A stretch of 64,000 nt of DNA from Salinarchaeum sp. IM2453 (GTDB lineage: Archaea; Halobacteriota; Halobacteria; Halobacteriales; Salinarchaeaceae). This document shows, piece after piece, positions 6,866-44,474 of this stretch. The stretch covers positions 124,001-188,000 of the forward strand of contig NZ_CP081183.1 in assembly GCF_019693215.1 (NCBI RefSeq), in the 5' to 3' direction. The notes beneath the pieces are model-generated. The model had not been told where the DNA came from. It searched no databases and saw nothing but the letters and a program-made list of their open reading frames with translations. A program made the position numbers and the translations under genes. Every line of letters starts with the position of its first letter. The first letter of the stretch is position 1.

Positions 6866-7495
6866 TCAGTCGGACACGCCTCGGATACCCTCGGTCTGGT
6901 CGCCTTGAACGGTATCAGAGGTCACGGTTGGGCCGTCCACAGGTCCCGATGCCTGCCGTCGCAACTTCCACTTCTGCACCTGTGGGAGTGTGTTGAGAGC
7001 AGGCACATTTCTATTGTCTTGTGTTCTCAACCACTTCTGCGCGACACTGATACCAGCGCCACGGTCAGCGTGGTCTTGATGATCGCACCCACAGCACTTG
7101 AACCGTTTCTTGTGACGGTTCGCCCGGTCTGTGTGGCCACAGACTGGACACTGTTGGCTGGTGTACTCCGGGTCAATATCATCTGACGGAATCCCGCACC
7201 ATGCGGCCTTGTACGTGATAAAGTCGCGGAGTTTGGCGAACGGTAGTGAATGGAGTCGCCGATTCATTCGAGTCCCGTACTCAATATCATCTCTCATGTC
7301 TTTGAGGTCTTCAAAGACAATTACAGGACTGTCGAACCGGTGAATCCACTCGACCACGCGCCGTGACACCGTGTGGAGTTGGTCATGAACGAACCGTTGT
7401 TCCTTGTCGCGGAACACATCGTTGAACGCGGTCTGCCCGGCTTCTTGCATCCGCTTCCGCATCGTAGAGATGGCGTTCGTCTCGCTGCCGCTGTA
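6866..7495 (-). pseudogene. 5'-truncated tnpB (RNA-guided nuclease of IS200/IS605 superfamily)
   Basis: Encodes about the last 200 residues of a TnpB. The frame is open to about 7495 without a convincing start; the first internal ATG is at 7462 (MRKRMQEAGQ). Still present are the second RuvC acidic residue in VIVFEDLKDMRD, the zinc ribbon (CPVCGH ... CCGCDHQ) and the third acidic residue in DHADRGAGIS. The WED/REC region and the first RuvC Asp are missing. It closely resembles the C-terminal half of the intact TnpB at 34777-36168. Without the first catalytic Asp it cannot be a nuclease. Confidence 0.85.
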
Positions 7496-29281: not shown

Positions 29282-29347
29282 ACATAACACTCAGAACAGA
29301 AGAATAAAAGACACGTGAACTTGGTTATAGGCTGAACAGGCGCAATA

Positions 29348-29367
29348 CCACGGCCTTCAGGCCGTGG
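29348..29367. repeat. Left-end palindrome of the PATE-like element
   Basis: CCACGGCC TTCA GGCCGTGG, a perfect 8-bp stem with a 4-nt loop. Confidence 0.75.
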
Positions 29368-29924
29368 ATACGCGCCGTCACTTGTGGTAACAGACCACCC
29401 CTCAAACACTCCCCAGAGTTTCCCACGCTAATATTTAATTGACAGGCCATCTAACCAAGGAAGAGGAATTGGTCGGAACGGAGCGGATTCCGAACCGTCC
29501 TTCGGAGGTCGTTCGAAAATCGGAGATTTTCGTGATCACGATAGACTCGTCTCTCGGACGACGGCCTGTCCGCCCACATAACAAGGCAGTACCCGGGAGG
29601 GCAGTCGGTGAACACACGTTCTAAAAGAGTGTGTCTGTGCCGACTGCTCAAAGCGAGCAAGACGATACCCCTGACTCTGCTGACACCTGCTGGCGTCCCC
29701 GTGGCGAAAACAACACTGGGACGCCGTACACGGTCGAGGATAGGGGTAACGGCGGGTTGGCACCGCCAGCAGTCCACCACACCGACACTGTGGGACTACC
29801 CGTGCCCGAAAGGTGTGGTAGTCCGTCGATTGGACTGCAAACCTGAAGCCCCCATCGCTCGGGATTCCTCTGCCTTCTGTCGGAGGAAAGTGTCAAATCA
29901 ACGGTTAATGCATAACGTCAACAA

Positions 29925-29945
29925 CCTCGGGGTCAAGCCCTGAGG
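29925..29945. repeat. Right-end palindrome of the PATE-like element
   Basis: Stem CCTCGGGG / CCCTGAGG with loop TCAAG (one G-T pair), differing at one base from the hairpin beside the truncated tnpB at 6832-6852. Confidence 0.72.
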
Positions 29946-30072
29946 CACGCTGCCTGCTTTTTCTGTGAATCTTGATTCTAATGTATTCGCAGTTATGCTA
30001 TTATATCTGATCTGACATGCATCCATGAGAAATGAAGTAGTTTTTTCTGAGTAAGGCCCGGAACTGCGAGTA

Positions 30073-34776: not shown

Positions 34777-36168
34777 TTAGTCCTGCACTGCTGACGCAAC
34801 GGACTTTAATTCCTCCCGCGCTCCCATCTCTGGTTGCGCCGACGTTCCGTGTCGGTGAATACCCGAACACAAATCGTGTCCGTGAGAGTCGGGGCCTCCA
34901 CCAGCCCCCGATGCCGCCCGTCTCACCGTCCGAACTCGTGGAAGGGTTTCGAGAGGCGGCACAGTTCCATACTGTTCGTCTAACCACTCCTGCACAACGC
35001 ATACCGCCGCCTTCCGATCAGCGTGATCTTGGAACTCACACCGTTTGCATTTGAATCGCTTCTTCTGTCGATTCGCTCGTTCTGTGTGCTGGCACTCCGT
35101 TCGTGGACATCGCTGACTCGTGTACTCCGGATCAACAGCGTCTGAAGGAATCCCTTCCCACGCAGCTTTGTACGATACCATCTCTTGGAGAGCTGCGAAC
35201 GGCAGTGAGTGAAGGCGACGGTTCACTCGCGTTCCGTAGTCGATGGACTCTCGCATGTCTTTGAGGTCTTCAAAGACGATTACTGGAGCCGAAAACTGCG
35301 AGATCCAATCGACTACTTCCCGCGATACCTTGTGCAGGCGATCGTGAACGTAGTCCCGTTCTTCTGATTGGAAGACTGTCTCAAACGCAGTCTGCCCGGC
35401 CTTCTGCATCCGCTTTCGCTTGGTGAAAAACTCGTGGCGCTGCTCTTTCACCGACGGATACTCGAACACAACGGAGCCTCTCACCGAACCACTCCGACTC
35501 ATCGCAACAAGTGCAATACAGTCTTCGTTCACATCCACGCCGATAATCGTGTCTGCATCATGCTTGCTGGCGACGTGATGAGTCTCGTGCGTGACTGTGA
35601 CGTGCAGTCGCCACTCATCGTGTTTGTGAACGACTTCAGCGGTTCCAACCCGCCACTCTTTGTCGTTGAATGCAGTTTGGAGTCGGTCGAAGTGGTCTGG
35701 GCTGCCACGAAGGTCGCCTTTGACGTGGGTACCTTTTGTGGCAGTGATACGGAATCGAACCGTCCCGTCGTCTTGGGGGAACAGACGGTAGCCTTCGCCG
35801 TGGTTCATCACCATCGGGTACGACTCGTCGATGTATGGGTAGGGACGTCCCCAGCCGTCGTCTTTGTGTTCGTGGTAGGTTTCGATTTCACCGAGTGCCT
35901 TGTCAACGATAAGTTGGGTGGTATTGTTGACGTGATCGGCGTTATTCACGACGACCGATTTGATGTCATCCCACTCCCACCCTTGTCGGTCGAGGCGGTT
36001 GGTTTCGTTGCGGATGCGGCGGGCCTCAAGACAGCCGGTTTGCAGGTCGTCGCCACTCCCCGTATCAATGTCTAGTCCGAACGACAAGGTTTGGGTGAGT
36101 TTCGACGACTGCACTGTAATCTGGTATGATTTGCTACCTGTTAAAATTCGTGTTGTGACGCGCTTCAC
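34777..36168 (-). CDS. tnpB: TnpB RNA-guided endonuclease
   Basis: 463 residues with a GTG start that abuts the left-end palindrome. The RuvC triad is complete: Asp in IIGVDVNEDCIAL, Glu in VIVFEDLKDMRES and Asp in DHADRKAAVCV. The zinc ribbon is CPRTEC ... CKRCEF. The N-terminal half is the wedge/REC region. TnpB proteins are omega-RNA-guided DNases that promote retention of IS200/IS605 elements. The tail (from about 405) is low-complexity and overlaps the probable omega-RNA coding region. The truncated copy at 6866 is a close relative. Confidence 0.9.
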   Translation of the reverse strand: MKRVTTRILTGSKSYQITVQSSKLTQTLSFGLDIDTGSGDDLQTGCLEARRIRNETNRLDRQGWEWDDIKSVVVNNADHVNNTTQLIVDKALGEIETYHEHKDDGWGRPYPYIDESYPMVMNHGEGYRLFPQDDGTVRFRITATKGTHVKGDLRGSPDHFDRLQTAFNDKEWRVGTAEVVHKHDEWRLHVTVTHETHHVASKHDADTIIGVDVNEDCIALVAMSRSGSVRGSVVFEYPSVKEQRHEFFTKRKRMQKAGQTAFETVFQSEERDYVHDRLHKVSREVVDWISQFSAPVIVFEDLKDMRESIDYGTRVNRRLHSLPFAALQEMVSYKAAWEGIPSDAVDPEYTSQRCPRTECQHTERANRQKKRFKCKRCEFQDHADRKAAVCVVQEWLDEQYGTVPPLETLPRVRTVRRAASGAGGGPDSHGHDLCSGIHRHGTSAQPEMGAREELKSVASAVQD

Positions 36169-43181: not shown

Positions 43182-44474
43182 ATGGCGTGGGAGGTAACTC
43201 GAACGGTTCGTGTCCGTCTCGATGTACCTGACGACCGCAAGAGCGACCTCCATGCCACCAACTCCAAATTCCAGTACTGCGCGAACCGTACCGCAGACTG
43301 GGCGTGGCGCTACCCCGACGAGGACTGCGTAACCAGCAAGAGCGAAGCCGAGGACGCCATCTACGACGACCTTCGTGAAAAAACCGACTACCTGCACGCG
43401 AACCTCGTCCAGAAGGCCATCAAACGCGCCACCGACGACATTGACAACTGTGTTGACCGGCTTGCAGACGGAAAAAACACCAGCAAGCCCTACTACGATA
43501 CATTCAGCATCGTCTACGACAAGCGAGCGGCCACTTACTACCGCGACAAAGTGAGTCTCGCCACAGTCAACGGCAGAGTTGAATGCGAATACAACCTGCC
43601 CGACAACCCTGACGGGACACCACACGGCAAATACCTACTGAACGACGACTACTCATTTTCAACCAGTACCGTCCACTACGACTCAGAAACCGACGAGTTC
43701 TACCTGCACGCGGTGATGGAACGGGAACTTGACGTGAACAGTCCTGAGAAAGCCGAGCATTCGAACGTGCTTGGCGTGGACTGCAACGTTGATGACCATA
43801 TCGCCGTGACCTCGACGGGTGCGTTCGTCGGGAACGCCGACTACCTTAACCATCAACGCCGCGAGTTCGAGAAACGCCGTGCCAGCCTGCAACAGACAGG
43901 CACACGGAGTGCCCATCTGACCTTCCAGCGCATTGGCGACAGGTTTGGGCGCTGGAGCGAAGACTACCTGCACCAGTGTTCCAAAGAAATCGTTGCCGAA
44001 GCCAAGCGTCACAGCTGTACGCACATCGCATTTGAGGACTTGGAGCAGATTCGAGCGCGTATCAGCGACGGCAAGAAGTTTCAACAATGGGCATTCCGCG
44101 AACTGCAAGAACAAACCGAACATAAGGCAGAACTGGCTGGCATTGTCGTTGAAACAGTCGAACCATCCTACACCAGCCAACAATGCTCGAAGTGTGGCTG
44201 TACGCTCGAAGAAAACCGAGACGACCAACACTTCCAGTGTTTTGACTGTTCATACTCGGTGAACGCCGACTACAACGCGGCAAAAAACGTTGCTCGGAAA
44301 CTCGCACTCAAACTCCAGCGAGGGCAGAAGTCCCCCGCTGGAGGGGCGTTCTGTCAGTACGCCCTGAAGTCGGGGACAATGACCGTGAACGCTACTAAAG
44401 TGGCGTCCGACACCTACGTATCGGCAGAACGGGAGTCCACCGACAAGCCAACGGCTTCAGCCGTTGATAGCTGA
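43182..44474 (+). CDS. tnpB: TnpB RNA-guided endonuclease (second subfamily)
   Basis: About 430 residues from MAWEVTRTVRVRLDVPDDRK; a GTG at 43173 would add three. RuvC residues are all present: Asp in VLGVDCNVDDHIAV, Glu in IAFEDLEQIRARI and Asp in VNADYNAAKNVARK. The zinc ribbon is CSKCGCTL ... CFDCSYS. The N-terminal half is clearly different from the TnpB at 34.8 kb, so the window holds two independent lineages. The C-terminal tail after about 385 overlaps the palindrome-rich right end. Confidence 0.9.
   Translation: MAWEVTRTVRVRLDVPDDRKSDLHATNSKFQYCANRTADWAWRYPDEDCVTSKSEAEDAIYDDLREKTDYLHANLVQKAIKRATDDIDNCVDRLADGKNTSKPYYDTFSIVYDKRAATYYRDKVSLATVNGRVECEYNLPDNPDGTPHGKYLLNDDYSFSTSTVHYDSETDEFYLHAVMERELDVNSPEKAEHSNVLGVDCNVDDHIAVTSTGAFVGNADYLNHQRREFEKRRASLQQTGTRSAHLTFQRIGDRFGRWSEDYLHQCSKEIVAEAKRHSCTHIAFEDLEQIRARISDGKKFQQWAFRELQEQTEHKAELAGIVVETVEPSYTSQQCSKCGCTLEENRDDQHFQCFDCSYSVNADYNAAKNVARKLALKLQRGQKSPAGGAFCQYALKSGTMTVNATKVASDTYVSAERESTDKPTASAVDS
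44450..44465. repeat. Right-end palindrome of the 43-kb tnpB element
   Basis: AACGGC TTCA GCCGTT, perfect 6-bp stem overlapping the last codons of tnpB. Confidence 0.65.

Follow-up and report, generated by a model that had tools for sequence, protein, structure and literature searches.

The window analysed here, a 64,000-nucleotide stretch of the Salinarchaeum sp. IM2453 genome, carries a 568-bp mobile element of the PATE type at positions 29329–29896 of the forward strand, a length that includes a nested 53-bp repeat. Its borders were drawn from 39 distinct copies and from empty sites. In the alignment of these copies, the sequence corresponding to positions 29325–29896 of the window is shared and diverges beyond; 36 of the 39 copies start directly after the tetranucleotide TTAT (29325–29328, forward strand), which places the element start at 29329, while all 39 finish in ...GTCAA, corresponding to position 29896, with a different sequence after GTCAA in each copy. 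TTAT, the target on the left side of the element and a candidate TAM, also precedes 14 out of 14 TnpB elements having the PATE's left end, and it is present once in the relatives' empty sites. The first-pass annotation had placed the element at 29340–29950; its length of near 600 bp was about right, whereas both borders had to be moved, to 29329 on the left and, according to the homologous copies, to 29896 on the right.

At the left end lies a hairpin of the IS200/IS605 kind (29348–29367, forward strand; CCACGGCC-TTCA-GGCCGTGG), the inner pairs of which switch between C-G and G-C among copies, and the true right-end hairpin is found at 29865–29888 (forward strand). Two palindromic ends of the IS200/IS605 kind had been proposed initially; the left one was correctly recognized, whereas the palindrome taken for the right end (29925–29945) is foreign to the element, being absent from the homologues and belonging to another repeat family. 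This separate repeat (29917–29966, no strand assigned) is located outside of the element, without counterpart in the homologues, and has 39 other partial matches in the same genome. One of these matches sits near a TnpB gene, so that the repeat may be the end of another IS605-type family. Terminal inverted repeats were not found, as no inverted pair links the two ends of the element. The nested 53-bp repeat (29509–29561, forward strand) is not part of the family consensus and is missing from L021 and most other copies; it has short inverted ends and more than 20 partial matches in the genome. As related repeats occupy more than one position in other copies and are found there in either orientation, repeated insertion into PATEs seems likely.

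As described at first sight, the interior is GC-rich (0.53–0.59 versus roughly 0.43–0.50 on either side) and devoid of a transposase or TnpB. Neither a TnpB nor a TnpA coding region is present in the element, the length of which leaves no room for a transposase gene, and the longest stop-free runs in any of the six frames span 108–206 codons among the 39 distinct copies. These ORF lengths, in the window stretch and in the copies, ruled out a hidden gene, and no intact gene emerged from the alignment. When the consensus was compared by tblastx with 42 TnpB loci, all matches among those listed fell within the ends and the omegaRNA part described below.

Distribution and mobility of the family

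The family element, which measures 518 bp without the nested repeat, was found at E 1e-60 or better in 37 of the 293 sampled genomes of the order, representing 24 of 87 genera, which rules out a random capture of host DNA. Full-length relatives at 73–82% identity are present in many other genomes and on plasmids; for the latter, 11 out of 56 matching records hold at least 80% of the element, nearly always without an annotated gene under the match. The genome of the window itself contains one near-full-length relative at 76%, two that match over the left part at 71–73%, and numerous short matches. G001 and G002, from the family to which this genome belongs, yielded short matches only, nearly all of them to the nested 53-bp repeat. 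No match to the element was found in phage records, nor in viral contigs in two pattern scans. A 20-base pattern of the PATE core occurred in 108 stretches of the named genome collection, and among the 80 listed all were haloarchaeal except for two bacterial MAGs, one assigned to Bacteroidota and one to Chthonomonas (L271 and L299), which possibly reflect chance or a binning error.

Altogether, 42 full copies were collected, of which 40 were distinct and had flanks, and 39 were kept after trimming. Five copies in genome G009 are 97–99% identical and located at different sites, indicating a recent spread of the element as a unit. To find empty sites, the flanks of 14 copies were joined and compared with 392 genomes, and eight relatives' loci, corresponding to five copies in other genomes than that of the window copy, were examined. 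In seven of these eight loci, TTAT (or GTTAT) is directly followed by the right flank without any duplication; at the eighth, L249, the junction was too diverged to judge. Such clean junctions indicate an IS200/IS605-type insertion and therefore a PATE. Indeed, the element combines near-terminal IS605-type palindromes, the lack of terminal inverted repeats and of target duplications, a length too short for a transposase, and mobility, the latter being based on the different flanks of the 39 distinct copies, the near-identical copies in one genome and the empty sites; it thereby agrees with the definition of a PATE given in PMC3119063. From these sequence comparisons we conclude that the element is a non-autonomous PATE of the IS200/IS605 type that moves as a unit without genes. 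The initial description of the locus as PATE-like was therefore well founded: the element leaves clean empty sites without duplication, is mobile and shares its ends with TnpB elements, and its interior, rather than being a random capture, is common to 39 distinct copies at scattered sites.

An omegaRNA-like scaffold in the 3' half

The 3' half of the element contains a predicted omegaRNA-like scaffold at 29664–29896 (forward strand), closed by a helix between 29664–29667 and 29891–29894. The Rfam family RF02656 (sot0042, haloarchaeal TnpB omegaRNA) matched positions 29708–29887 over its full length with 37.7 bits, against a gathering score of 88, and scored 30–50 bits in the other PATE copies matched. 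Because of this sub-threshold score, we built a covariance model, R1, from an alignment (A1) of 15 TnpB-linked omegaRNAs only. R1 matched the window at 29708–29896 (61.6 bits, E 8.7e-17) and all 40 of 40 PATE-bearing sources over its positions 1–175, with scores of 52–94 bits, while its best match elsewhere in the PATE-bearing sources reached 27.6 bits. The input of this search consisted of 43 sources, namely the 40 PATE-bearing ones (among which L178 and L202 are apparently the same sequence), two remnants (L026 and L028) and a virus (L170); PATE-bearing loci such as L135, L138, L171, L176, L181, L185, L193, L200, L207 and L208 were left out.

Covariation was scored in 33 copies (A2), the 39 having been reduced by omitting L131–L134, which are near-identical to L130, as well as L185 and L193, which carry long insertions. 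Two-sided changes were observed in 30 of the 82 predicted pairs, compared to 10.2 in shuffled versions, with none of 500 shuffles reaching as high. Moreover, 96.4% of the cells were paired, as opposed to 36–48% when the partners were slid, and G-U pairs were common; as these rows also served to derive the PATE structure, this control is partly circular, which the slid and shuffled versions soften. The pair counts were taken from the PATE-only alignment, since the register of the closing helices differs by about one base in the R1-based alignment. From position 29561 on, column conservation amounts to 0.83–0.98 across genera, equal to that of the ends.

The fold predicted from the 33 PATE copies and the one predicted separately from the TnpB-linked RNAs have the same order of helices: a closing helix that ends at GTC, a stem preceding GTAAC, a GGC..GCC hairpin whose loop contains TTGGCA, a long stem, a pairing of TCCC with GGGA and, lastly, the right-end hairpin. 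The GGC hairpin, which lies at 29751–29767 in the window (forward strand; GGCGG-GTTGGCA-CCGCC), is the counterpart of the GGCTG...CAGCC hairpin in the TnpB-linked RNAs. In 22 out of 22 TnpB-linked RNAs it reads GGCTG/CAGCC, in PATEs GGCGG/CCGCC or GGCCA/TGGCC, and exchanges between GC, CG and AT affect its two inner pairs in 13 and 12 of the 33 copies. In a comparison of the 33 PATE and 22 TnpB loci, the PATE consensus carried the same base at 30 of the 34 unpaired positions that are invariant in the TnpB-linked RNAs.

Several parts are particular to the PATE RNA. A 5' stem (29600–29648, forward strand; helices 1–2) is predicted upstream of the R1-matched part, with two-sided changes in 6 of its 18 pairs, and an expanded stem-loop (29676–29740, forward strand; helices 5–6), likewise showing two-sided changes, stands where the TnpB-linked omegaRNAs have a short apical loop. 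Farther upstream, a highly conserved PATE-specific block (29465–29500, forward strand; column conservation 0.96) is predicted to form a hairpin, with little covariation. About 26 bp before this next conserved block lies a TTTAA motif (29434–29438, forward strand), the columns of which are 82–100% conserved within a variable stretch and which is predicted to be a possible TATA box of an RNA promoter.

The scaffold stops exactly at the right end of the element, so the next host bases would be the guide (29897–29916, forward strand; about 16–20 nt, a length borrowed from ISDra2). Placed beside TTAT, this would-be guide is exactly the sequence of the empty site. The PATE RNA thus has several hallmarks of an omegaRNA, namely a whole-length match to the model built from TnpB-linked RNAs, a 3' end at the element's border with a variable guide after it, and a TAM-like motif at the opposite side; on the other hand, no TnpB domain lies beside it and the RF02656 threshold was not reached. 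Judged from conservation and covariation, the 3' half of the element encodes a structured RNA that is under selection for its pairing, homologous to TnpB omegaRNAs and enlarged by extra stems, and we file the element as a PATE that is putatively omegaRNA-like in its working, though not a member of RF02656 by Rfam's own threshold. The idea of the first-pass annotation that the interior encodes a structured RNA and not a protein was accordingly upheld by the two-sided changes and extended by the relationship to TnpB guide RNAs. The copy in the window may be less active than others, as it is somewhat worn: it is 88% identical to the consensus, has GGAGGATGTCAA changed to GGAAAGTGTCAA at its 3' end, and scores lower with R1 than most other copies (71–94 bits).

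Potential partners and competing explanations

The genome contains 51 matches to the TnpB zinc-ribbon family and one intact Y1 transposase (TnpA), which sits outside any element with the PATE's ends. In the window itself, TnpB zinc-ribbon matches are located at 7052–7240 (reverse strand), 35002–35199 (reverse strand) and 44094–44291 (forward strand). Three TnpB elements of the same genome (L024, L154 and L156) have the PATE's left end, its right end, TTAT and the same fold. R1 matched the genome 39 times; 10 of these matches start 8 bases past a TnpB domain and 29 have no adjacent TnpB domain, several of the latter being weak or remnants. One R1 match (493492–493675, 156.9 bits) possibly lies downstream of a broken tnpB.

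In 13 of the 13 loci that could be resolved, the TnpBs of the L024 group carry a glycine at the position of the usual RuvC-II glutamate, whereas a glutamate is found at the alternative place, seven residues ahead of the zinc finger. The ExxxxxxCxxC motif was seen in TnpBs of haloarchaeal IS605-type elements, namely L024 (325–1698), L154, L156, L217–L222 and L224–L227. A displaced RuvC glutamate of this arrangement is described for other TnpBs in the relevant part of PMC10711439, and with these residues kept, the L024-group TnpBs may be active. A close TnpB (E 1e-110) was present in 33 of the 37 PATE genomes and in 149 of the 256 others (p = 2e-4, a value that ignores kinship and mobile-element load). 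In G009, no close TnpB was found at E 1e-110 among the 5 of 15 candidates scored, and the R1 search returned no TnpB-type RNA above 37 bits besides the PATEs. Two contigs of this genome (G009:C15:1-1366 and G009:C3:1-1362; L228 and L229) end within an element having the PATE left end (93%), and the TnpB encoded there is about 32% identical to the L024 group, the ends being common to distant TnpBs.

The explanation that we favor, with a probability of roughly 0.6, is that of a gene-free PATE whose sole product is an RNA, so that the element would bring its own guide RNA and take TnpB and TnpA from other elements. As the PATE has no genes of its own and its RNA is built like a TnpB guide RNA, it probably borrows the TnpB of related elements in order to persist in the genome. 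The RNA would be transcribed from a promoter within the element, for which TTTAA (29434–29438) is a candidate, and would be bound by a TnpB from other elements, presumably from the group that has the PATE's ends, TTAT target and RNA fold. A Y1 transposase from elsewhere would peel the element out, TnpB would be directed to TTAT plus guide, which is the site left empty on excision, and the resulting cut would be repaired from the sister copy, thereby restoring the element. Such targeting of the excision site has likewise been proposed for ISDra2 TnpB, according to the corresponding section of PMC8612924. Counting against this explanation are the low RF02656 score relative to the gathering score, the worn state of the window copy, and the location of the single TnpA outside any element with these ends. 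A simple pairing of PATE and TnpB is further challenged by G009, which shows the most recent spread yet has neither a close TnpB nor a high-scoring TnpB-linked RNA, and the extra stems of the PATE RNA could prevent its binding to known TnpBs. A broader claim, which we hold tentatively and at slightly less than even odds, is that such elements form a widespread class of guide-RNA-only transposons, which lost all proteins while retaining their omegaRNA and elaborating it by additional conserved domains, and which exploit the TnpB (and TnpA) encoded by other elements throughout the haloarchaea. Of the guide-RNA-like loci in this genome, 29 lack a neighbouring TnpB domain and 10 have one.

Alternatively, the folds might be needed as single-stranded DNA by the transposase and not as RNA, which we deem highly improbable. 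Y1 transposases recognize single-stranded DNA hairpins near both ends, and both end hairpins of the PATE covary, in keeping with this idea; however, covarying stems also lie far inside the element (29600–29648, 29676–29740 and 29751–29767), G-U pairs are common, and the same topology was predicted separately from TnpB-linked RNAs. The RNA-like part might also be what a tnpB deletion left behind, in which case only the ends would matter and a transposase would act in trans. Even though PATEs arising by core deletion are described in a passage of PMC3119063, the same genome harbors remnants of about 200 bp with the same ends (L026 and L028), and 29 of the 39 R1 matches, many of them weak, do not follow a TnpB domain, such an origin is strained by the covariation: the interior is conserved like the ends across genera, with pairs kept by two-sided change, and the extra conserved stems are without equal in any TnpB-linked RNA of A1. 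We therefore regard a mere fossil as distinctly unlikely.

The large added stem and the 5' stem, which set the PATE RNA apart from the TnpB-linked form, would also suit a decoy or regulator that occupies TnpB (or the TnpA mRNA) and lowers its activity, thereby protecting the PATE from being cut or damping other elements; a decoy role is raised for circular omegaRNAs in the pertinent text of PMC12558985. Yet a decoy would not need a 3' end exactly at the right border followed by host bases, as seen in 39 out of 39 copies, and this reading appears unlikely.

If the guides of the favored explanation work, the RNA-guided upkeep of a transposon would be uncoupled from the nuclease gene, turning the PATE into a parasite of a parasite. 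This would explain the persistence of tnpB-less copies, predicts that TnpB acts in trans, and would offer a simple account of why a viral PATE was reported to be strongly expressed. PATEs have so far been treated as noncoding leftovers, and their extra stems illustrate, in a natural setting, the extent to which the scaffold of a TnpB guide can be enlarged. The guide-RNA idea is directly testable in culturable haloarchaea.

Comparison with known systems

IscB omegaRNAs and HEARO RNAs without a protein gene are likewise guide RNAs that stand alone and presumably act in trans, although these involve IscB instead of TnpB and are bacterial. In the literature searched, we found no report of PATEs carrying a complete TnpB-type guide RNA, and the link may already be in print. 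Already known, as far as the cited sections of these papers go, are PATEs, TnpB guide RNAs and the strong transcription of a halovirus PATE.

The PATEs of Haloquadratum walsbyi, as described in PMC3119063, lack inverted terminal repeats, have near-terminal IS605-type palindromes, cause no target duplication and are too short for a transposase, and one of them, HqIRS71, is noncoding and similar to an extended 3' portion of a tnpB element; all these features are common to the element studied here. Where it deals with PATEs, that paper describes them as either noncoding or degenerate, without mention of a guide RNA, and its six families are compared here by description only. A PATE-like sequence of Halanaerobium hydrogeniformans consists of a left hairpin, the last 58 nt of tnpB and the entire right end; in contrast to the present family, it is a single copy, and no RNA is discussed in the main text of PMC7290912.

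The halovirus HRTV-DL1 carries a 489-bp PATE without tnpB, the last 300 bp of which are the most transcribed part of the virus, and the authors noted that a Halobacterium PATE is active as ncRNA (PMC10544981, in the part concerning these elements). R1 gave a weak full-length match in the viral PATE near its right end (L170, 945–1089; 13.0 bits, E 0.03). The viral sequence differs from the present family and has no Rfam match at E 0.01, and the match lies on the ORF3 strand, whereas the reads are antisense to ORF3 according to the portion of PMC10544981 that reports them.

A further comparison is with the TnpB omegaRNA/sotRNA (RF02656), as characterized in the respective sections of PMC12558985 and PMC8612924. 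Unlike these RNAs, the predicted PATE RNA has no tnpB upstream, its apical stem is enlarged, a 5' stem is added, and its score lies below the RF02656 threshold. What it shares with them is the order of the fold, unpaired bases, the 3' end at the element's border and a guide that would be drawn from the flanking DNA.
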